Assembly (NCBI RefSeq): GCF_035989285.1
Contig: NZ_CP108513.1
Span: 1,550,001 to 1,614,000, forward strand
Origin: Streptomyces sp. NBC_01235
Lineage (GTDB): Bacteria; Actinomycetota; Actinomycetes; Streptomycetales; Streptomycetaceae
DNA length: 64,000 nt
Reading direction: 5' to 3'
A program made the translations under genes and the position numbers. This document shows positions 1 through 15,686 of the stretch, piece by piece. The number at the start of each line of letters is the position of its first letter. Position 1 is the first letter of the stretch. The notes beneath the pieces were generated by a model that saw only the letters and a program-made list of their open reading frames with translations, had not been told where the DNA came from and made no database searches.

Positions 1-3000
1 GCGTAGGACGCCAGGCGGCCCGCCTGACCGGCAAGACCCTCCCCGCCACGACCCGACACCACCCACGGCACCACACCACCGGCCACGAACACCGACACGG
101 TGTCCACATCCCCGGAAGCCGTCGCCGGGACCGCCGGGGCCTCTTCCAGCACCACATGCGCGTTCGTCCCGCTGATCCCGAAGGACGACACACCGGCCCG
201 GCGCGGACGCCCCTCGACCTCCGGCCAGTCCACCGCCTCGGTCAGCAAACACACCTCCCCCGCCGACCAGTCGACATGCGACGACGGCGCGTCGACGTGC
301 AGCGTGCCCGGCACGAGCCCGTGCCGCATGGCGAGCACCATCTTCATCACGCCGGCCATGCCGGACGCGGTCTGGGTGTGCCCGATGTTCGACTTGACCG
401 AGCCGATGAGCAGCGGCTGTTCGGACGGACGGTCCTGTCCGTACGTCGCCAGCAGGGCCTGCGCCTCGATCGGGTCGCCCAGCCGCGTGCCCGTGCCGTG
501 CGCCTCGACGACATCCACGTCACCGCCGGTGAGGCGGGCGTCGGCGAGGGCGGCGCGGATGACTCGTTGCTGCGAGGGGCCGTTGGGCGCGGTCAGGCCG
601 TTGCTCGCCCCATCCTGGTTGATCGCCGAACCGCGCACCACCGCCAGCACCGGATGGCCGTTGCGGCGGGCGTCCGACAGCCGCTCCAGCAGGAGCACCC
701 CCACGCCCTCGGCGAGGGAGAAGCCGTCGGCGGCCTCGGCGAAGGGCTTGCACCGGCCGTCGGGGGCGAGGCCCCGCTGCCGGCTGAAGCCCACGAACGG
801 CGCCGGATCGGCCATGACCATCGCCGCGCCCGCCAGCGCCATCGAGCACTCTCCGGACCGCAGGGCCCGTACCGCGAGATGCAGCGCGACCAGCGACGAG
901 GAGCACGCGGTGTCCACGGTCACCGCCGGTCCCTCCAGACCGAGGACGTAGGAGACCCGACCCGAGGCGACGGCGGTCGAGGCGCCGGTGACGAGGTAGC
1001 CCTCGGTGCCGTCGGTGCCACGGCTGAGCAGGGTGCCGTAGTTCTGGTCCGTCAGACCGGTGAAGACTCCGGTGCTGCTGCCGCGCAGGGTCCTCGGGTC
1101 GATGCCGGCCTGCTCGAACGCCTCCCAGGACGTCTCCAGGAGCAGTCGCTGCTGGGGATCCATCGCCGCCGCCTCGCGCGGGGAGATCCCGAAGAAGGCC
1201 GCGTCGAACTCCCCGGCATCGTGCAGGAAGCCGCCGTGCCGGACGTAGCTGGTGCCGGGCCGGTCGGGGTCGGGGTCGTAGAGCCGGGTCGTGTCCCAGC
1301 CCCGGTCGGCGGGGAAGCCGGTGATGACGTCCTGGCCGTCGGTGACGACCCGCCAGAGGTCCTCGGGGGACGTGACGCCGCCCGGGTAACGGCATCCCAT
1401 GCCGACGACCGCGATGAGGTCGTCGTCGGTGGAGGCCGCCCGTGAACCGGCCGCGACCACGGACGACTCCGAGTCCTGCCCTGGTGCGGCAAGGTCTCCG
1501 AGGGCCAGCCGGCGGAGGTGGGCGGCGAGGGCGAGCGGAGTGGGGTGGTCGAAGACGACCGTCGTCGGGATCTTCAGGCCCGTGCGGGCGGTGAGCCGGT
1601 TGCGCAGCTCGACGGCGCTGACCGAGTCGAAGCCCAACTCCTTGAAGGCATAGGCGGCGTCGACGGCGGCCGCCGAGGCATGACCCAGCACGACGGCCGC
1701 CTCGGACCGGACGAGGTCCTGTACGAAGCGGTCGTGTTCGGCGGCGGGCAGGGCTCCGAGCCGCTGCGTGAGGCTCGACACCGCTGTGTCCGTGCCCTGT
1801 GCGTCCCGTTCCCCGGCGCCTCGGCTCTTGTCCTGCGGTTCCAGTGCGGCGATGAGCGGGGAAGGCCGGGCAGCGCTGAAGACGGGCACGAAACGCGCCC
1901 AGTCGACGTCGGCGACCGCCACGACCGTGTCGTCGTGGTCGAGCGCCTCCTGCAGTGCGACCATCGCCGGTTCCGCCGCGATGACAGGGATGCCACGGCG
2001 GCGCAGCGGGTCGCGCATGTCCTCGGCGATCATGCCGCCGCCGTCCCAGGGGCCCCAGGCCACCGAGAGCACCGGAAGCCCGCTTGTGCGGCGCGCGCGC
2101 TCGGCGAGGGCGTCCAGGCAGGCGTTGGCGGCGGCGTACGCCGCGTGGTCGGCGACGCCCCAGACACCGGAGATCGAGGAGAAGAAGATCAGCGCGTCGG
2201 TCTCGGCCGGGTCGAGGACCTCGGTGAGGTGCCGTGCCCCTGCGACCTTGCCCACGGCGGCCTCGGCGAACTCCGCCATGCTGAGGTCGGCGAGCGTCCC
2301 GAGGGTGCCGACACCTGCGGCGTGCACGACGGTGCGGACCGTACGTCCGTCCGCGCGCAGGGAACTCAGCAGATCCCCGAGTGCCGCGACGTCGGCCACA
2401 TCGCACGCGGTGACGGTCAACCGGGCTCCCAGCGCTGCGACTTCCGCCTCCAGCTCCGCCAGGGCCGCGTCGTCGTTCCGGCCTCGCCGACTGACCAGCA
2501 CCACGTCCTCGGCACCGCCACGCGCCAGCCACCGGGCGACATGCGCGCCGAGCGCACCGGTTCCGCCGGTCACCAGGGCGGTACCGCGCGGCGACCAACG
2601 CCGACCGGACGATGGCCCGGACGATCGCCCGGCAGCCGACCGGGGGGCCGGCACCAGGCGCCGTACGAAGGTGCTGTTCGCCCGCAGGGCCACCTGATCC
2701 TCCGCGCTGTCGCCGTACGAGGCCAGAACGGCGCAGAGAGCACCGGTGTCCCGTGCGTCGAGCCGCTCGGGAAGGTCCACCAGCCCACCCCAGCGTTCCG
2801 GGAACTCCAGGGCCGCGACCCGGCCCAGCCCCCAGACGGCCGCCTGCGCCGGCCGGGCGACCGACTCCTGGTCCCCGACCGCCACGGCACCTTGCGTGAC
2901 ACACCACAGGGGCGCGTTCACCCCGTCCTGTCCCAGTGCCTGGAGGAGGGAGACGGTGAGTGCGGCCCCGGTGGACAGCACGGGATGGTCGGGCAACGGT

Positions 3001-6000
3001 TCCTCGTCCAGGCCCAGCAACGACAGCACGCCGCTGAGCGGCACCGCAGGATCGGCCGACGCCTCGTCGAGCACGGACTTCAGGACATCGCGGTCGGCGT
3101 GGCGCGACGTGAGTTCGAGGACGCGTACGTCGGCGCCGTGACGGGTCAGCGCATCGGAGAGGGAGGTGATGAGCTCGGTGTCGGGGTGTCCCTGCGGCAC
3201 GACGAGCAGCCAGGTACCGGTCAGGACGACGGCCCGAGTGTCCTGGGCGACCGGCTTCCAGACCACCTTGTACCGCCAGCCGTCCACCGCCGAGCGCGCC
3301 ACCTGCTCTTTGCGCCACCCCGACAGCACGGGAAGGACACCGGCCAGCGCCTCACTGTCGGACACCCGCAACGTCCCCGCCAGCGCCTCCAGATCCTCAC
3401 GCTCGACCGCCTCCCAGAAGCGGGCGTCCACCGCCTCCTGCCCGAAGACCGCAACACCCGCGGGAACCCTCTTCTCCAGCCAGTAACGGCGGCGCTGGAA
3501 GGCGTACGTCGGCAGCGGGACCGTGCGGGCATCGTGGCCGGCCAGGACCGCCGTCCAGTCCACCGGGATACCACGCACCCACGCCTCGGCCAGCGAAGTC
3601 AGGAAACGGTGCGCGTCACCCCTGTCACGCCGCAAAGTCCCGACCACCAGCGCGTCGGGTGCGGCCTCCTGGACCGCCATGCCGAGCACCGGATGGGAAC
3701 TCACCTCCACGAACGCCCCATAGCCCTGCTCCAGCAAACCTTCGACGGCGTCGGCGAAACGCACCCGCTGACGCAGATTCCGATACCAGTAACCCCCGTC
3801 CAGCCCAGCCGTGTCGATGACCTCCGCCTCCGTCGTCGAGAAGAACGGCACCTCACCAGGACGCGGCGCGACAGCCGCGAGGACCCGGGCCAGCTCGGCC
3901 TCGATGGCCTCCACATGCCAGGTGTGCGACGCGTAGTCCACCGGAACACGACGCGCCCGGATGTCACTGCTCTCGCAGTGCGCCATCAGCTCATCGAGGG
4001 CGTCCGCGTCCCCGGCCACCACCACCGAACCCGGACCATTCACCGCAGCAACATCAATACGGCCCCCCCAACCGACCAGCAACTCCTCCACATCAGCCAG
4101 TGCAAGAGGCACGGAGACCATGCCACCGCGCCCCGCGATCACACGGATCGCACGCGACCGCAACGCCACCACCCGCGCCCCGTCCTCCAACGACAGACCA
4201 CCCGCCACCACCGCAGCCGCGATCTCCCCCTGCGAATGACCCACCACCACCGACGGCTCAACCCCACACGCACGCCACACCGCCGCCAACGACACCATCA
4301 CCGCCCACGACACCGGCTGCACCACATCCACATCAACCAACTCACCCCCACCCCGCACCACCTCACTCAACGACCACCCCACAAACGGAGCCAGCGCGGC
4401 CTCGCACGCCTCCATCGACGCCGCGAACACCGGCGAGACACCCCACAACTCCCGCCCCATACCCACCCACTGCGCCCCCTGCCCCGGGAACACGAACACC
4501 ACGTCACCGGCAGCACGAGCAGCCCGCCCGCTCACCACGGAGGACGGCGTCACCCCGTCATCGGCTGCCAGTCCCCTGGCCCCGAGGATCAGGTCGGCCT
4601 GTTCAGCGCCCAGGACGACGGCGCGGTTCTCGAACGCTGTGCGCGTCGACGCCAACGACCACGCCACATCGACCGGGCGGACATCCTCGCCCGCCAGTTC
4701 CACGTACGACGCCAGCCGCCCCGCCTGACCGGCGAGCCCCTCTCCACCACGGCCCGACACCACCCACGGCACCACACCACCGGCCACGAACACCGGCACC
4801 GCATCCACGCGCCCCGAAGCACTCTCCGGCACCACCGGAGCCTCCTCCAGCACCACATGCGCATTCGTCCCGCTGATCCCGAAGGACGACACACCGGCCC
4901 GGCGCGGACGCCCCTCCGTCTCCGGCCACTCCACGGCCTCCGTCAGCAACGACACCTCCCCCGCCGACCAGTCGACATGCGGCGTCGGCTCGTCGACATG
5001 CAGGGTCCGGGGAAGCATCCCGTGCTGCAACGCCAGCACCATCTTCATCACACCGACCACGCCTGCGGCGGCCTGCGTGTGGCCGACGTTGGACTTCAAC
5101 GAGCCCAGCCACAGGGGCCGTTCCGGATCCCTGCCCCGCCCGTAGGTCGCCAGCAGCGCCTGCGCCTCGATCGGGTCGCCCAGCGTGGTGCCCGTACCGT
5201 GCGCCTCCACCGCGTCCACGTCCGCGGCGGACAGCCCGGCCTTGGCGAGGGCCGCCCGGATCACCCGCTCCTGCGAAGGACCGTTGGGCGCGGTCAGACC
5301 ATTGCTCGCACCGTCCTGGTTGACCGCCGAACCCCGCACCACCGCCAGCACCGGATGACCATTGCGCCGCGCATCCGACAACCGCTCCAGCAGCAGCACC
5401 CCCACACCCTCACCCCAGCCGGTGCCGTCCGCACCCGCCGCGAACGGCTTGCAACGACCGTCCGGCGCAAGCCCACGCTGCCTGCTGAACTCCACGAAGA
5501 TGCCGGGCTCGGCCATCACGGTCGCGCCTCCGGCGAGCGCGAACGAGCACTCGCCCGAGCGCAGCGCCTGGACCGCCAGATGCAGGGCCACCAGCGACGA
5601 GGAGCACGCCGTGTCCACCGTCACCGCCTGCCCACGCAGGCCGAGAAAATAGGAGATCCGCCCGCTGGCCACACTGCAGGAGGTGCCGGTCAGGAGATAT
5701 CCGTCGACGGACTCCGGGGCTCGGTGCAGTCCGGGGCCGTACTCCTGCTGCATGAGTCCTACGAACACTCCGCCGTCGCGCTCACGGAGTGTCTCCGGGT
5801 CGATCCCGGCCCGCTCAAGTGCCTCCCAGGAAACTTCCAGCAGCAGCCGCTGCTGCGGGTCCATGGCGGCGGCCTCGCGGGGCGAGATGCCGAAGAAGCC
5901 GGCGTCGAAGTCGCCCGCGTCGTAAAGGAACGAGCCCGAGCGTGCGTACGTGGTCCCGTGCTGCTGCGGGTCGGGATCGTACAGGTCGTCCAGGTCCCAT

Positions 6001-9000
6001 CCTCGGTCGGTGGGAAAGCCGGAGATGGTGTCAGCGCCGGCGGAGAGCAGTTCCCACAACTCTTCCGGTGTGCGGATGCCACCGGGCATACGGCAGCCCA
6101 TGGCCACGATGGCGATGCACTCGTCGTCGGTGGCGGGTGTCGAGTCCACGGAGGTCTCGGGGGCCGGGGCGCTGCCACCGTGCAGCAGACCGCCCACATG
6201 GCGGGCGAGAGCCTGGGGAGTGGGGTGATCGAAGAGAACCGAGGCCGGCAGGGAGAGCCCGGTGTCCGCGACCAGTCGGTTGCGCAGTTCGACGGAGGTC
6301 GCGGAATCGAAGCCCTGCGCCTTGAAAGTGAGCCCGGCGTCGACATCGGCGGCTGTGGCATGGCCCAGCACGGCGGCGGCATGGGTCCGGATCCGCTGCA
6401 CCCAGTCGTTACGCAGCTCAGGCTGCGTAAGGGCCTCGGCTTCCTCCGACTCGGCGGGTTCCCCGAAGGGAAGTGTGAGACGCCGGGTCGCGCCGCCGTC
6501 GAGCCAGTAACGGCGGCGCTGGAAGGCGTACGTCGGCAGCGGGACCGTGCGGGCATCGTGGCCGGCCAGGACCGCCGTCCAGTCCACCGGGATACCACGC
6601 ACCCACGCCTCGGCCAGCGAAGTCAGGAAACGGTGCGCGCCGCCCTTGTCACGCCGCAGAGTCCCCGTCACGACCGCGTCGGGTGCGGCCTCCTGGACCG
6701 CCATGCCGAGCACCGGATGGGAACTCACCTCCACGAACGCCCCATAGCCCTGCTCCAGCAAACCTTCGACGGCGTCGGCGAAACGCACCCGCTGACGCAG
6801 ATTCCGATACCAGTAACCCCCGTCCAGCCCAGCCGTGTCGATGACCTCCGCCTCCGTCGTCGAGAAGAACGGCACCTCACCAGGACGCGGCGCGACAGCC
6901 GCGAGGACCCGGGCCAGCTCGGCCTCGATGGCCTCCACATGCCAGGTGTGCGACGCGTAGTCCACCGGAACACGACGCGCCCGGATGTCACTGCTCTCGC
7001 AGTGCGCCATCAGCTCATCCAGCGCATCCGCGTCCCCGGCCACCACCACCGAACCAGGACCATTCACCGCAGCAACATCAATACGGCCCCCCCAACCGAC
7101 CAGCAACTCCTCCACATCAGCCAGTGCAAGAGGCACGGAGACCATGCCACCGCGCCCCGCGATCACACGGATCGCACGCGACCGCAACGCCACCACCCGC
7201 GCCCCGTCCTCCAACGACAGACCACCCGCCACCACCGCAGCCGCGATCTCCCCCTGCGAATGACCCACCACCACCGACGGCTCAACCCCACACGCACGCC
7301 ACACCGCCGCCAACGACACCATCACCGCCCACGACACCGGCTGCACCACATCCACATCAACCAGTTCGCAACCGCCCCGCACCACCTCACTCAACGACCA
7401 CCCCACAAACGGAGCCAGCGCGGCCTCGCACGCCTCCATCGACGCCGCGAACACCGGCGAGACACCCCACAACTCCCGCCCCATACCAACCCACTGCGCC
7501 CCCTGCCCCGGGAACACGAACACCACCCGATCAACACCACCCGTCACCGCACCCCGCACCACACCGGAGCCGACCACCCCACCCGCCGCCAACACACCCA
7601 GCCCGGCAACAAGTTCAGCCGACTCACCACCCAGGACAACAGCCCGGTTCTCGAACGCCGTACGCGTCGACGCCAACGACCACCCCACGTCCACCGACCG
7701 GACATCCTCGCCGACCGACCTCACATACGAGGCGAGGAGGCCGGCCTGACCCGCCAGCCCCTCCCCACCACGCCCCGACACCACCCACGGCACCACACCA
7801 CCAGCCACGAACACCGACACGGTGTCCACATCCCCGGAAGCCGTCGCCGGGACCGCCGGAGCCTCCTCCAGCACCACATGCGCATTCGTCCCACCCATCC
7901 CGAATGCACTCACCCCGGCCATGAGGGGCGTATCGGGGCGGGGCCAGGGGCTGTGGGCGTCCTGGACGCGGAGCCGGAGAGCGTCGAGGGGAATGTCGGG
8001 GTTGGGTGTCCGGTAGTTCAGGCTGGGCGGAAGTTCGCGGTGCTGGAGTGCCAGTACCGTCTTGACCAGGCCGGCGATTCCGGCCGCGCCCTCCAGGTGA
8101 CCCACGTTGGTCTTGACGGAGCCTACGCGCAGTGGCCCCTCGGGGGGCCTGCCCTCGCCCAGGGCCGCGCCGAGGGCGGCCGCCTCGACGGGGTCGCCGA
8201 CCGGAGTGCCGGTTCCGTGGAGTTCGACGTACTGGATGTCGTACGGGGCCGTCCCGGCGTTGCGCAGGGCACGGCGGATGACGTCTTCCTGGGCGTGCGG
8301 GTCGGGAGCGGTGAGCGTGTCACCACCGCCGTCGTTGTTGACGGCGCTGCCGCGGATGACGGCGCGGACGGGGTCGCCGTCGGCGAGCGCCCGGTCGAGC
8401 GGCTTGAGTACGACGAGGCCACCGCCCTCGCCACGGACGTACCCGTTGGCACGGGCGTCGAAGGTGTAGCAGCGGCCGTCGGGCGAGAGCGCGCCGAAAC
8501 GGTGCGGGTAGAGGCTGCTTTCCGGGGCGAGGTGCAGGTTGACGCCGCCCGCGAGGGCGAGGTCGCTGTCTCCGCTGCGCAGGCTCTCGCAGGCCAGGTG
8601 GACGGCGACGAGCGAGGACGACTGCGCCGAGTCGAGGGTGAGGCTGGGGCCGCACAGGCCGAGCAGGTAGGAAAGCCTGTTGGCGACGAGAGCGCGGTGG
8701 GTGCCGGTGAACGACTGGTGGGTGACGGCTTCGGGGCCGAACCCGTGAAGCAGGGTGGCGTAGTCGTCGTGGGCGGTCCCGATGAACACGCCCGTGCTGG
8801 TGGAGCGGAGGTGTCCAGGCAGGATGCGGGAGTCCTCCAGGGCCTCCCAGGCGAGTTCGAGGACGAGGCGCTGCTGGGGGTCCATGGCGTCCGCCTCGCG
8901 CGGCGAGACACCGAAGAAGCCGGCGTCGAAACGGTCGACCTCGTCGAGGAATCCGCCCCAGCCGGGTACGCCGTCCCCGGGCTCGTCCCCGTTCCCGGGC

Positions 9001-9236
9001 TCGGTCAAGCCTCCTGACCTGGACGCGGACTTGCCCCCAGGCCACCCGTCCCCCTCACCGAGCGACGGACGATCGGCGGGAGCAGCCGGACGCACGGCGC
9101 TCTCACCGTCGCGCAGCAGACGCCAGAGGCTGTCGGGGTCGGGCGCGCCGGGCAGGCGGCAGGCCAGGCCGACGACGGCGATGGCCCGGTGGGGCGCGGT
9201 GTTGAGCCCGTACCGTGTGCGTTCTGACTCGCTCAT
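1..9236 (-). CDS. Type I modular polyketide synthase, loading module to start of module 2 (3' end cut by window edge)
   Basis: About 3,078 codons are visible. The ATG at 9236 is preceded by a GGTGGAG-type ribosome site. Domain order by residue: KSQ 19-459, with the active-site Cys replaced by Gln205 (motif DSAQSSSL) and HGTGT kept; AT 575-910 (GHSQGE, Ser660; YASH from Tyr760); ACP with Ser978; KS1 about 1038-1455 (Cys1211, EAHGTGT); AT1 from 1583 (Ser1668, YASH from Tyr1768); KR with GGTGALG near 2220 and Tyr2367; ACP Ser2538; KS2 from about 2606 (Cys2778); then the start of an AT linker. All active-site codons checked are in one frame. Family knowledge: KSQ decarboxylates the extender loaded by its AT, and YASH/GHSQGE indicates methylmalonyl-CoA, so the predicted starter is propionyl. 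The KR lacks LDD and has Trp at Tyr-8 and His at Tyr-3, an A2-type signature. No DH or ER lies in module 1. The product is not identifiable from this part. Confidence 0.95.
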   Translation of the reverse strand, partial: MSESERTRYGLNTAPHRAIAVVGLACRLPGAPDPDSLWRLLRDGESAVRPAAPADRPSLGEGDGWPGGKSASRSGGLTEPGNGDEPGDGVPGWGGFLDEVDRFDAGFFGVSPREADAMDPQQRLVLELAWEALEDSRILPGHLRSTSTGVFIGTAHDDYATLLHGFGPEAVTHQSFTGTHRALVANRLSYLLGLCGPSLTLDSAQSSSLVAVHLACESLRSGDSDLALAGGVNLHLAPESSLYPHRFGALSPDGRCYTFDARANGYVRGEGGGLVVLKPLDRALADGDPVRAVIRGSAVNNDGGGDTLTAPDPHAQEDVIRRALRNAGTAPYDIQYVELHGTGTPVGDPVEAAALGAALGEGRPPEGPLRVGSVKTNVGHLEGAAGIAGLVKTVLALQHRELPPSLNYRTPNPDIPLDALRLRVQDAHSPWPRPDTPLMAGVSAFGMGGTNAHVVLEEAPAVPATASGDVDTVSVFVAGGVVPWVVSGRGGEGLAGQAGLLASYVRSVGEDVRSVDVGWSLASTRTAFENRAVVLGGESAELVAGLGVLAAGGVVGSGVVRGAVTGGVDRVVFVFPGQGAQWVGMGRELWGVSPVFAASMEACEAALAPFVGWSLSEVVRGGCELVDVDVVQPVSWAVMVSLAAVWRACGVEPSVVVGHSQGEIAAAVVAGGLSLEDGARVVALRSRAIRVIAGRGGMVSVPLALADVEELLVGWGGRIDVAAVNGPGSVVVAGDADALDELMAHCESSDIRARRVPVDYASHTWHVEAIEAELARVLAAVAPRPGEVPFFSTTEAEVIDTAGLDGGYWYRNLRQRVRFADAVEGLLEQGYGAFVEVSSHPVLGMAVQEAAPDAVVTGTLRRDKGGAHRFLTSLAEAWVRGIPVDWTAVLAGHDARTVPLPTYAFQRRRYWLDGGATRRLTLPFGEPAESEEAEALTQPELRNDWVQRIRTHAAAVLGHATAADVDAGLTFKAQGFDSATSVELRNRLVADTGLSLPASVLFDHPTPQALARHVGGLLHGGSAPAPETSVDSTPATDDECIAIVAMGCRMPGGIRTPEELWELLSAGADTISGFPTDRGWDLDDLYDPDPQQHGTTYARSGSFLYDAGDFDAGFFGISPREAAAMDPQQRLLLEVSWEALERAGIDPETLRERDGGVFVGLMQQEYGPGLHRAPESVDGYLLTGTSCSVASGRISYFLGLRGQAVTVDTACSSSLVALHLAVQALRSGECSFALAGGATVMAEPGIFVEFSRQRGLAPDGRCKPFAAGADGTGWGEGVGVLLLERLSDARRNGHPVLAVVRGSAVNQDGASNGLTAPNGPSQERVIRAALAKAGLSAADVDAVEAHGTGTTLGDPIEAQALLATYGRGRDPERPLWLGSLKSNVGHTQAAAGVVGVMKMVLALQHGMLPRTLHVDEPTPHVDWSAGEVSLLTEAVEWPETEGRPRRAGVSSFGISGTNAHVVLEEAPVVPESASGRVDAVPVFVAGGVVPWVVSGRGGEGLAGQAGRLASYVELAGEDVRPVDVAWSLASTRTAFENRAVVLGAEQADLILGARGLAADDGVTPSSVVSGRAARAAGDVVFVFPGQGAQWVGMGRELWGVSPVFAASMEACEAALAPFVGWSLSEVVRGGGELVDVDVVQPVSWAVMVSLAAVWRACGVEPSVVVGHSQGEIAAAVVAGGLSLEDGARVVALRSRAIRVIAGRGGMVSVPLALADVEELLVGWGGRIDVAAVNGPGSVVVAGDADALDELMAHCESSDIRARRVPVDYASHTWHVEAIEAELARVLAAVAPRPGEVPFFSTTEAEVIDTAGLDGGYWYRNLRQRVRFADAVEGLLEQGYGAFVEVSSHPVLGMAVQEAAPDALVVGTLRRDRGDAHRFLTSLAEAWVRGIPVDWTAVLAGHDARTVPLPTYAFQRRRYWLEKRVPAGVAVFGQEAVDARFWEAVEREDLEALAGTLRVSDSEALAGVLPVLSGWRKEQVARSAVDGWRYKVVWKPVAQDTRAVVLTGTWLLVVPQGHPDTELITSLSDALTRHGADVRVLELTSRHADRDVLKSVLDEASADPAVPLSGVLSLLGLDEEPLPDHPVLSTGAALTVSLLQALGQDGVNAPLWCVTQGAVAVGDQESVARPAQAAVWGLGRVAALEFPERWGGLVDLPERLDARDTGALCAVLASYGDSAEDQVALRANSTFVRRLVPAPRSAAGRSSGPSSGRRWSPRGTALVTGGTGALGAHVARWLARGGAEDVVLVSRRGRNDDAALAELEAEVAALGARLTVTACDVADVAALGDLLSSLRADGRTVRTVVHAAGVGTLGTLADLSMAEFAEAAVGKVAGARHLTEVLDPAETDALIFFSSISGVWGVADHAAYAAANACLDALAERARRTSGLPVLSVAWGPWDGGGMIAEDMRDPLRRRGIPVIAAEPAMVALQEALDHDDTVVAVADVDWARFVPVFSAARPSPLIAALEPQDKSRGAGERDAQGTDTAVSSLTQRLGALPAAEHDRFVQDLVRSEAAVVLGHASAAAVDAAYAFKELGFDSVSAVELRNRLTARTGLKIPTTVVFDHPTPLALAAHLRRLALGDLAAPGQDSESSVVAAGSRAASTDDDLIAVVGMGCRYPGGVTSPEDLWRVVTDGQDVITGFPADRGWDTTRLYDPDPDRPGTSYVRHGGFLHDAGEFDAAFFGISPREAAAMDPQQRLLLETSWEAFEQAGIDPRTLRGSSTGVFTGLTDQNYGTLLSRGTDGTEGYLVTGASTAVASGRVSYVLGLEGPAVTVDTACSSSLVALHLAVRALRSGECSMALAGAAMVMADPAPFVGFSRQRGLAPDGRCKPFAEAADGFSLAEGVGVLLLERLSDARRNGHPVLAVVRGSAINQDGASNGLTAPNGPSQQRVIRAALADARLTGGDVDVVEAHGTGTRLGDPIEAQALLATYGQDRPSEQPLLIGSVKSNIGHTQTASGMAGVMKMVLAMRHGLVPGTLHVDAPSSHVDWSAGEVCLLTEAVDWPEVEGRPRRAGVSSFGISGTNAHVVLEEAPAVPATASGDVDTVSVFVAGGVVPWVVSGRGGEGLAGQAGRLASY
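3478..4502 (-). repeat. PKS AT-domain long repeat, copy in module 1
   Basis: About 1,025 bp covering nearly the whole AT of module 1 and its C-terminal linker. It is almost identical to 6502-7526, at a constant offset of 3,024 bp (exactly 1,008 codons). Differences are few and clustered, for example near 3619-3650, 4018, 4035 and 4340. Flanking KS and KR/ACP sequence is much less alike. This looks like a recent duplication or gene conversion confined to the AT. Confidence 0.9.
6502..7526 (-). repeat. PKS AT-domain long repeat, copy in loading module
   Basis: Partner of the repeat at 3478-4502, carrying the loading AT. Both copies keep the same methylmalonyl signatures. Shorter KS-AT linker repeats around 54-180, 4750-4885 and 7775-7895 extend the homology to the third module. 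Confidence 0.9.
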
Positions 9237-9393
9237 TCCACTCCACCAGCTTGTTGGCCCAGCCCGTGTGGACCGCAGACGTCGGGTACGGCATGCGTAC
9301 GGCGCACGGCGTAGCCGGCGGACCGTCCCAGCCGGTCAGGGGTCGGACAGCGGATCGCGGACCGCCGGGCTACCCACGCTAGGGGCGCATGGA

Positions 9394-9409
9394 CTAGGGC
9401 GGCCCCTAG
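9394..9409. promoter_or_regulatory. Candidate PAS-LuxR (PimM-type) operator
   Basis: The 16-mer CTAGGGCGGCCCCTAG is an inverted repeat with CTAGGG and CCCTAG arms around CGGC. The published PimM consensus is CTVGGGAWWTCCCBAG; both six-base half-sites match exactly and only the central four bases differ. An extra half-site CTAGGG starts at 9379. The site lies 158 bp before the PKS start codon and 225 bp before the start of the divergent small ORF. A gene for a regulator of this family lies about 0.6 kb away. That it works here is inference. Confidence 0.65.
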
Positions 9410-9633
9410 ATTCATGCCGGTCCGCGGGGTGCGGGGGCGGGTCGTCGCCGGGGGGTGTTTTCAGGAAACGCCCAGACATGGCGCCGGGGAAGGCGTCGGG
9501 TGTTGCGCTCGTCGGGGTTCTGCCGACTGAATGAGGCGACACCGCCCGGGGGGGGCGGCGGTGATGTGTCCGGGTCCCGGGTCGGCATGCGCGACGAAGC
9601 CTTGGCCGGTCCGGAGGAGGCGGAGGGAAATCC

Positions 9634-9921
9634 ATGACGAACGCGGAACTCGCGGACCTGCGCGGCGCCCTGGTCAAGCTGCGCGGCAGCCTGCAGTCGC
9701 TACGGCTGGCCGATGGCGACTCGCCGTACGTCCGCAGGCTGATGAACGACCTCGACCGGTTCCAGTTGGACATGGAGGATGTCACCGGAGCCGGAGTTCG
9801 CCTGTCGGCGCTGCACGGAAGCTGGTGTGAGCGGGACGTCGTGCGGATCAACGACGGCCCGTACCAGCATCTGCCGTGGCAGGACGCGGACGACGAGGGT
9901 ATCGGCGGTCAGCGCCGCTGA
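9634..9921 (+). CDS. Small hypothetical protein divergent from the PKS
   Basis: A 95-aa ORF with a good ribosome site (GGAGG / GGAGGG shortly before the ATG). I do not recognise a family. The first half is Leu/Arg/Asp-rich and probably helical, with a heptad-like run (LRGALVKLRGSLQSL, then LMNDLDRFQLDMEDV), so a short coiled coil or helical hairpin is likely. The C-terminal third is acidic with aromatic residues (WCERDVV, PYQHLPWQD). No signal peptide or membrane segment is seen. It is transcribed away from the PKS across the shared 397-bp intergenic region with the PAS-LuxR-type palindrome, and is followed by two strong hairpins. A role in the polyketide pathway is inferred only from position. 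Confidence 0.7.
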   Translation: MTNAELADLRGALVKLRGSLQSLRLADGDSPYVRRLMNDLDRFQLDMEDVTGAGVRLSALHGSWCERDVVRINDGPYQHLPWQDADDEGIGGQRR

Positions 9922-10034: not shown

Positions 10035-10721
10035 TCACTTCACGTACTCGGGCACGGCACGGGGCGGCCAGCTGCCGACCGTGAGGACACCCATCGAGTA
10101 GGCGCGGGAGACGAGCGCGGCGCGGTTGGGGGCCTTGAAGCGTCGCAGCATCAGACCGACGTGGTACTCCACGCCTTGGCGGCTGAGGTAGAGACGCGAG
10201 GCCAGCTGGATGGTCGAGGCGCCGGTGGCGACCCCTTCCAGGATGCGGGCGTCGAGGGCGGTGAGCATCGGCGTCGGTTTGGCTGGCCGCTCGGCCGCCT
10301 CGGCCGGCTCGTCCTCCGGGCTCATCAGGACGACGACACCCGACAGGTCGTCCCCCTCCCCCTTGACGGCTATGCCGGTGATCTCCGCGGAGAAGACGCG
10401 GTCGTGGCCGCGCATGGCGACCACTCGCTCGACGAAGCGGCTGCCTTGGCCGTTCGAGAGATGGGTGAAGTGCTTGGGGAGGATGTTGCGGGCGCTCGGA
10501 TGCAGGACGTCGTAGATGCTGCGTCCGCAGATCTCCGTGGACGGCCGGGCGACATGGCGGAAGAAGTCGGCGTTCGCCGCTTCGATCTTGAGACCGGCGT
10601 CCAGACTCGCCATGCAGGTGACGTGGTGCGGGGTGCTGTGCCGCCGGTCGCCACGACGGGTATTGCGCGATGCTTCGGGAAGGCCACTGACCATTGCCGA
10701 CCTGTCGGCGTAGGGGAGCAT
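10035..10721 (-). CDS. PAS-LuxR family transcriptional regulator (PimM type)
   Basis: The protein has an N-terminal PAS fold (from MASLDAGLKIEAANADFF to about the VVVLMSPED strand) and a C-terminal LuxR-type helix-turn-helix (LTALDARILEGVATGAS, then LASRLYLSRQGVEYHV). This is the layout of PimM, PteF and related regulators of polyene and other polyketide clusters. ATG 10721 has a strong ribosome site (GGAGAGGAA, about 5 bases away) and gives 228 aa. An internal ATG at 10613 would give 192 aa, the length I recall for PimM, but has no clear ribosome site; the true start is therefore open. A palindrome matching the PimM consensus arms sits at the PKS promoter. It is very likely the pathway activator of this cluster (inference). 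PAS domains may sense a ligand or redox state; no ligand can be named here. Confidence 0.9.
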   Translation of the reverse strand: MLPYADRSAMVSGLPEASRNTRRGDRRHSTPHHVTCMASLDAGLKIEAANADFFRHVARPSTEICGRSIYDVLHPSARNILPKHFTHLSNGQGSRFVERVVAMRGHDRVFSAEITGIAVKGEGDDLSGVVVLMSPEDEPAEAAERPAKPTPMLTALDARILEGVATGASTIQLASRLYLSRQGVEYHVGLMLRRFKAPNRAALVSRAYSMGVLTVGSWPPRAVPEYVK

Positions 10722-13830: not shown

Positions 13831-15423
13831 TCAGGTGGTGATTCTGCCGGTGGCGATCAGAGTGGCCAGGGTGGCCAGCTGCGCATCGCTGTTGATGCGC
13901 TCGGCGAACGTTACGGCACCTCGCTGCTGGCCCCGGCCGCCCTGCCGGGGCGGCCGGAACGGCATCTGCGAGAACGTGTGGATCACGGACTCCGTGGCCC
14001 CCAGGGCACCCGCCTGGTCCACCAGGCGCCGGAACTCCCCGTTGCGGGCGCCGCCCGCGCCGATCGACTGGAGGAAGACGACGTCGTCCGCGTTCCATCC
14101 GCGGTTCGCGGTGACCTGAATCAGATCCTGGAGGGTCATGGTGGCGGCGGCCAGCGCCTGGCCGAAGTAGGTCGGCTGGGGGTCCGTGAAGACGAACGGG
14201 GCCGCGGCGGCCAGGACCTGCCAGCCCCCGGCCGTGGGGTCGTACCGCTTGAAGTTGATCGTGAGAGACCGGACGAAGTACGGGGCGAAGGACTGCTGGT
14301 ACGGCGTGGTCTGGGGGTTGGCCGCCCCGTAGTCCACGTCGACGCCGAAGTAGACGTAGTGGCGCGCAGCGTTCGCCGCCAGAGCGGCGTTCGCGGTCTC
14401 CACGGTGTTCAGCTCCCTCTTCAGCACGCTCTCGACGCTGGCCTCGTACCGGCTGTTGTCGCGCTTGGAGGCGGGCACCAGGTTGTTCTGCGTTCCGGGA
14501 CCGCCCGCCTGCATGTTGATGAGATGAAAACGGATCCAGAAGTTCGTAAGACCGAGCTGGCGGATGTAGGTGTAGCCGGTGGGGTCGACGGCCGGCGGCG
14601 AGCCGATCAGCGAACCGTCACTGATCATCTCGATGGACGTCGTCCGGCCCAAGGAGTCCACGACGGGGTACATGAACGAGCTCTGCGGAACGGCGTTCGT
14701 GTTGTAGGCGACGCGCTGGACCTGCCGCCGCCGGCCGGAACCCTCGCCCGTCCGCCCCTGTTCGGAAGCGTGCGCCGCTCCCTCCCCGGCTTCGGCGCTC
14801 CGCTGCACGGGGGCGGGCCCCGACATCACCCGGGCGGCGTTGGCCTCGGCGGCCCGCTCGAAGGAGTCGCCGGGGTCGCTGACCCGCAGTCCGTCGCCGG
14901 TGTCGGTGCCCGCGACCGGGCCGCTTCGCTGCTGGATCACATGGGTGAGCTCATGGGCCAGGGTGTGCTTGTCACCGCCGCCCTCGCCGATGACCACATG
15001 GCTGCCGGAGGTGTAGGCGCGGGCCCCGAGCTGCGCGGCCGACCGGCGGGCGGCGCTGTCGTCGTGCAGACGTACGTCGCCGAAGTCGGCGTCGAGCCGG
15101 GCCTCCATCTCCTGCCGCAGCGGCGCCTCCAGCGGACGGCCCCCGCTGCGCAGCACCGCGTCGACCTCGGGGGCGCGCTGGACGGCCGTGCCGTCCGAGT
15201 GTCCGCAGCCCGGACCGTGTTCGTGCCGTTCGTCGGCGACGAGCTGGGCCAGCGCCCGGTTGCCCACCGTGCGCTGGAGGACGGCGAGGGCGGCGGGTGA
15301 CAGCCCGCCGGTACGACCCAAGGCGGCGGCGGTGTGCACAGCGGCCGACCGGGCGGCCGCCGGACGCCGGTCCCGTCCCTGCTGCGGGCCCTGAGCCTGC
15401 GTGTCCTGCTCCCGCGCCCGCAT
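13831..15423 (-). CDS. eCIS-core (DUF4157) metalloprotease-like protein with nuclease-like C-terminal domain
   Basis: 530 aa from ATG 15423 (ribosome site GGGAGAG). A disordered N-terminus holds the motif SPAALAVLQRTVGNRALAQL usual before this domain. DUF4157 spans about residues 95-175, with DADFGDVRLHDDSAA and the zinc motif HELTH at 157-161 (HTLAHELTHVIQQRSG). A linker rich in Ala/Gly/Arg follows. The C-terminal part contains HLINMQAGGPG (His300), NNLVPASKRDN and a helix with VE, resembling the DNA/RNA non-specific endonuclease-like modules of polymorphic toxins (from memory, moderate). DUF4157 is tied to extracellular contractile injection systems, but none is in this window, so the gene is an orphan. 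A small ORF follows 55 bp downstream. An upstream in-frame extension to 15555 lacks a ribosome site and looks non-coding. Confidence 0.85.
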   Translation of the reverse strand: MRAREQDTQAQGPQQGRDRRPAAARSAAVHTAAALGRTGGLSPAALAVLQRTVGNRALAQLVADERHEHGPGCGHSDGTAVQRAPEVDAVLRSGGRPLEAPLRQEMEARLDADFGDVRLHDDSAARRSAAQLGARAYTSGSHVVIGEGGGDKHTLAHELTHVIQQRSGPVAGTDTGDGLRVSDPGDSFERAAEANAARVMSGPAPVQRSAEAGEGAAHASEQGRTGEGSGRRRQVQRVAYNTNAVPQSSFMYPVVDSLGRTTSIEMISDGSLIGSPPAVDPTGYTYIRQLGLTNFWIRFHLINMQAGGPGTQNNLVPASKRDNSRYEASVESVLKRELNTVETANAALAANAARHYVYFGVDVDYGAANPQTTPYQQSFAPYFVRSLTINFKRYDPTAGGWQVLAAAAPFVFTDPQPTYFGQALAAATMTLQDLIQVTANRGWNADDVVFLQSIGAGGARNGEFRRLVDQAGALGATESVIHTFSQMPFRPPRQGGRGQQRGAVTFAERINSDAQLATLATLIATGRITT

Positions 15424-15686
15424 CGCTGCTCTCCCTCGCCCTCGGCCGTGCACAGTCCCCACCACGCTTCCGTCCGCACGGCACGTACACCAGGTCCGTA
15501 CGGGCAGACTTGGGGGCAGCGTGTTCCGTCCGGGGGATGGCGCGGCGCATGGCACGGGAGGGCTTGCGTGAAAGGGAGCTGTGCTGTCTCCGTGATGCCC
15601 AGACGGTCTCCGAGATCTCTTGCCAAGTGTGCTGACGTCTCAGTCATGTTCGCGTGCTTACCCCCACCAACGAGATAAGCAAGTAG

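Follow-up and report, generated by a model that had tools for sequence, protein, structure and literature searches.

The DNA analyzed here (64,000 nucleotides of Streptomyces sp. NBC_01235, hereafter the window) covers part of a giant polyketide synthase (PKS) cluster, together with a palindrome that we read as the putative operator of its first PKS operon. The first PKS gene (positions 1 to 9236, minus strand) starts with a KSQ-type loading ketosynthase (DSAQSSS) and extends 3531 bp beyond the left edge of the window, amounting to 4255 amino acids in total. Its start codon (9234 to 9236) faces a divergent small open reading frame (ORF) of 95 amino acids (9634 to 9921, plus strand), next to which lies the gene of a PAS-LuxR regulator (10035 to 10721, minus strand; 228 amino acids from a conserved ATG, in an open frame reaching 10859). 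The regulator has an N-terminal PAS domain (PAS fold) and a C-terminal LuxR-type helix-turn-helix (HTH; GerE, PF00196, E 2.4e-8, 33.9 bits, cut-off 23.5), and some of its relatives are recorded as 190 to 193 amino acids long. Between the divergent genes, 158 bp upstream of the PKS ATG, a 16-bp palindrome occupies positions 9394 to 9409 (CTAGGGCGGCCCCTAG as read directly from the window; CTAGGGGCCGCCCTAG in the PKS sense, minus strand), with the arms CTAGGG and CCCTAG around the centre GCCG. The initial annotation had described exactly this palindrome, its place between the two divergent genes, and a PAS-LuxR gene 0.6 kb away, all of which we found (the regulator ORF ends 626 bp from the palindrome), the regulator start lying farther off, at 1.3 kb (conserved ATG, 10719 to 10721).

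In the available text of PMC6448028 and PMC9774167, the PimM operator of Streptomyces natalensis is given as the 16-bp consensus CTVGGGAWWTCCCBAG, which is quoted for PteF and FscRI as well. The palindrome contains both PimM-type half-sites that had been claimed for it, CTVGGG and CCCBAG, 4 bp apart (12/12 matches), and its centre differs from AWWT as proposed, with 0/4 matches in the PKS sense (12/16 overall). By its likely role, the site is most likely a PimM-type operator. It is not a canonical PimM operator, since its centre fails the AWWT definition.

Conservation among relatives, rather than pattern statistics, provides the main and strong evidence for the palindrome. Relatives of the regulator (E up to 1e-20) were found in 64 of 295 genomes of the genus and on 38 contigs of a species collection. 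Among these 38 contigs, the strict palindrome stands where expected in 10, and a version with a single arm mismatch occurs in 4 (L074, L078, and L081 at the expected position, L083 on the opposite side of the regulator); 24 are without it in that place. We looked for the KSQ motif in these contigs, in 20 further regulator-centred loci, and in the window. Counting each genome once, 14 genomes proved to have a KSQ-type loading PKS next to a PAS-LuxR relative (the window, L068 to L077, L080, L090, and G117), 13 of which have the operator; in these 13, the window genome and 12 relatives, the regulator gene adjoins the first PKS gene. The exception is L090, with a regulator of about 60% identity, whose PKS promoter holds only a weak candidate, CTAGAAGTTCCCCCAG (12/16). 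The operator is identical to that of the window at 15 to 16 of 16 positions in the 13 species, and the approximately 40 alignment columns upstream of it show 39 to 79% identity in the 12 other species. The conserved core spans 9393 to 9413, with GAAT ahead of the operator in 12/13 species (GATT in L080) and a T behind it in all 13. One arm reads TTAGGG in L074, and the centre, in the PKS sense, is GCCG in 10 species and GGCG in 3.

The alignment of the 13 species also shows that the operator always has the same orientation and always lies 12 nt from a downstream -10-like hexamer, TAGCGT (9376 to 9381, minus strand), which is exact in 11 species and reads AAGCGT and TACCGT in the other two. This hexamer overlaps an additional CTAGGG, present at 9379 to 9384 of the window, that the initial annotation had interpreted as an extra half-site extending the binding region. 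We rejected this half-site: only its TAGCGT part is conserved, its CCCTAG being kept in 6/13 species (counted by eye from the alignment), and it is best read as a -10 element plus chance bases; the operator would then lie over the -35 position. We found no recognizable -35 hexamer at the operator, no sigma-70-like pair, and no terminator-like site at the palindrome.

Loci in which the PKS gene has decayed provide a natural comparison. In L078 (S. lasiicapitis), the PKS start is reduced to fragments, and in L081 one short PKS match is left; both loci have CTAGGGGTCGCCTTAG for the operator, and TGGCGT or TGACGT for the -10 element. In the locus of L082 (S. zinciresistens), neither a PKS match nor the operator was found, and the small ORF is retained together with a 14/16 version of a second conserved block described below. 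Thus, the operator is degraded or absent where the PKS has decayed or was not found, indicating that it follows the PKS gene.

By the statistics of the window, the palindrome is only mildly unusual. CTVGGGN4CCCBAG has one exact match, compared with 0.14 per shuffle, and at least one match occurred in 14 of 100 shuffles. In the whole genome (11.09 Mb), this degenerate pattern has fewer matches than its reversed control (11 versus 24), and therefore the loose pattern alone is little proof. The comparison suggested in the initial annotation, of motif frequency upstream of cluster genes with that elsewhere in the genome, gave a mixed outcome: for the loose pattern, 1 of the 11 genomic matches falls in the cluster, without clear enrichment. 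The full PimM consensus with up to 2 mismatches matches 26 genomic sites versus 14 for the control, 2 of the 26 being in the cluster (P ~0.07); with a mismatch at every centre base, site 9394 is not one of these 26. Enrichment of the loose consensus, not being significant genome-wide, was dropped as main evidence. CTAGGGAWW half-sites, a pattern picked after the sites had been seen, are enriched, with 3 of 9 genomic copies in the cluster, which covers 1.7% of the genome (P ~4e-4). CTAGGG itself is scarce, with 405 copies in the genome compared with 7208 of the reversed word, which has no CTAG, and 405 independent half-sites would give 0.004 strict palindromes per genome. The strict form, CTAGGGN4CCCTAG, occurs once in the source genome and, including this copy, 23 times in 22 of the 295 genus genomes. 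Seventeen of the 23 were checked for their surroundings, 4 lying at the PKS and 13 elsewhere; the signature SRQ-[GS]-V-x-YHV, sought in 12 to 15 kb around these 13, was found at none. An exact copy in G091, surrounded by unrelated genes, was not accepted as evidence for a wider regulon.

Further CTAGGG sites are distributed over the cluster, for which we set working limits at roughly -182 kb and +11 kb on the numbering of the window (about 193 kb). Of its 13 occurrences, 10 are matched in G117, where 11 occur in 220 kb, 10 of them matched in turn in the cluster of the window; the unmatched ones are -132228, -27227, and 9379 in the latter and -56947 in G117. Besides 9394, seven conserved sites are informative (-181911, -166459, -113770, -112121, -27229, -27019, and -22652), among them CTAGGGAATTCCAAAG at -112121 (G000:C1:1437879), which has an AATT centre, and CTAGGGATTTGCCGGT at -27019. 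Site -3688 is uninformative, lying in a block that does not differ between the two species and that includes the next PKS start. At several sister sites the conserved block extends only a few bases past the motif; conservation reaches farther on one or both sides at -27229, -113770, and -166459. Three sister sites sought in 16 genomes were found in 3, 4, and 4 of them, all among G000, G117, G014, and G125. Most sister sites combine one good arm with an AT-containing centre, and site 9394 combines two perfect arms with a GC centre.

Considering these observations together, we regard it as quite probable that 9394 to 9409 is the operator of the PimM-type PAS-LuxR activator encoded by 10035 to 10721, serving the first PKS operon. 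A regulator dimer would hold the two CTAGGG arms with two LuxR-type recognition helices. It would sit over the -35 region of a promoter with a -10-like TAGCGT and no recognizable -35, and would in this way bring RNA polymerase to the first PKS operon. The same regulator would also read the CTAGGG half-sites at promoters elsewhere in the surrounding cluster. The initial interpretation of the site is in this sense partly supported. Several points weigh against the operator reading. The 13 species share one ancestral cluster and are hence not independent events. The site is missing from L082 and L079, whose regulators are 74% and 86% identical, although these loci also yielded no KSQ PKS. The centre agrees with AWWT at none of its four positions. 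Binding is inferred, as are the dimer, activation rather than repression, and the transcription start. The loose motif is without genome-wide enrichment, one exact GCCG-centred copy, that of G091, sits in an unrelated place, and the cluster also encodes LAL-type LuxR-HTH proteins, possible readers of a similar site.

The proposed operator resembles the PimM operator in its arms, its 4-bp centre, its inferred place over -35, and a PAS-LuxR gene in the same PKS cluster; it differs in having GCCG or GGCG instead of AWWT, in holding this asymmetric centre in one orientation, and in belonging to a giant PKS cluster. The PAS-LuxR literature, as far as its text was available, describes operators at -35, a hierarchy with SARP-LAL regulators, and CfaR and PimM without self-regulation (PMC6448028, PMC9774167, PMC5143413, PMC9394381, PMC4380410, PMC4700089, PMC9942304, PMC5930380, PMC3367932, PMC10100954). 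Similarly to the site described here, the CfaR site at the cfa1 promoter of S. scabies is a palindrome upstream of the first biosynthetic operon, lying beside -35 as the window site would, and in both systems the regulator's own promoter has no site; however, CfaR was reported to have a single site in its cluster, whereas several conserved half-sites extend across the cluster studied here. The TtmRIV consensus, YVSGGAWWTCCSBR (quoted in the available text of PMC9774167), likewise modifies the PimM consensus in a PAS-LuxR system, but there the arms vary and the AWWT centre is kept, whereas the window site has perfect arms and another centre. The literature text searched contained no GC-centred PAS-LuxR site; figures and supplements lay outside this search, and footprinted PimM sites with other centres are possible. 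It is tempting to speculate, although we consider it rather doubtful, that this PAS-LuxR clade employs two operator classes within a single cluster. The promoter of the first PKS operon would have a site with perfect arms and an oriented GC centre (G-S-C-G), and the remaining promoters would have one-armed CTAGGG sites, mostly with AT-containing centres. Because the regulator keeps the same recognition segment (HTH segment SRQGVEYHVG identical in 23 aligned sequences), it would be the centre that ranks the promoters, by tuning affinity or DNA bending.

The best-surviving alternative, which we consider unlikely, is that another cluster regulator reads the site and the PAS-LuxR protein reads AT-centred sites only. 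The reader would most likely be a LAL-type LuxR-HTH protein encoded about 170 to 180 kb to the left, where AAA_16 and GerE domains occur together in two open frames and AAA_16 alone in a third, and the difference of the 9394 centre from the PAS-LuxR consensus sequences quoted in the available text of PMC6448028, PMC9774167, and PMC4380410 is consistent with this. However, the arms agree with the PimM consensus (PMC6448028, PMC9774167), the element adjoins the PAS-LuxR gene in 13 species, and the literature text examined for a LAL or LuxR site of such sequence, that of PMC3367932 and PMC10100954, contained none. Since the palindrome lies in a shared divergent region, it could also serve the small ORF instead of the PKS, or both equally. 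The single orientation and fixed 12-nt spacing to the PKS-side -10-like element argue against this, as do L082, which keeps the small ORF without the operator, and L071, which keeps the operator and, judging from coordinates, has room for a truncated small ORF only, making such a role very improbable. That the palindrome arose by chance, to which the loose matches in shuffled sequence might point, or is a structural element that no regulator reads, is scarcely credible given conservation in 13 species against diverged flanks and the lack of a terminator-like site.

In the intergenic alignment of the 13 species, the block that ranks second in conservation lies at 9460 to 9481 (CATGTCTGGGCGTTTCCTGAAA on the minus strand). 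Its 16-mer at 9460 to 9475 agrees with the PimM consensus at 12/16 positions in the window and 13/16 in G117, so that the block appears as a degenerate PimM-like palindrome on the small-ORF side. The small ORF itself has no Pfam or NCBIfam match; similar ORFs lie beside the regulator gene in relatives with and without the PKS, and its end reads DADDEGIGGQRR in the window and DADDEGIGGHRR in the five relatives read. Upstream of more distant PAS-LuxR genes (L093, L094, L096, L098, L099, and L103), site-like 16-mers with 9 to 11 of 12 arm matches, e.g., CTAGGCATATCCCTAG in L099, are located about 850 to 870 bp before the regulator-gene end, a place where the clade of the window has no CTAGGG. To the right of the regulator, the ORF at 13831 to 15555 contains an eCIS core domain (PF13699).

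The cluster contains 26 ketosynthase motifs (1 KSQ and 25 DTACSSS), a 27th pattern match being spurious, and patterns for ketoreductase, thioesterase, and dehydratase domains were too crude for use. Other cluster genes encode P450s, ABC transporters, a thioesterase, a histidine kinase, and LAL-type regulators, and a literature search yielded no identification of the product. The second PKS gene is split into overlapping frames of 2292 and 2769 amino acids at G000:C1 ~1539429-1539459 (10.5 kb left of the window), by either a sequencing error or a real frameshift, its G117 counterpart being a single open frame of 5046 amino acids. Within G000:C1:1539429-1559236, acyltransferase stretches are, by eye, near-verbatim repeats between modules of the first two PKS genes, and the split falls inside one such repeat.

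If the proposed role of the palindrome is correct, the PimM operator rule would be extended to sites with a different centre. PAS-LuxR regulons predicted from the published 16-mer may be incomplete, since a scan allowing up to 2 mismatches misses the conserved 9394 site. The regulator gene and its sites would then provide a practical handle for switching on this PKS assembly line with its 26 ketosynthase motifs.
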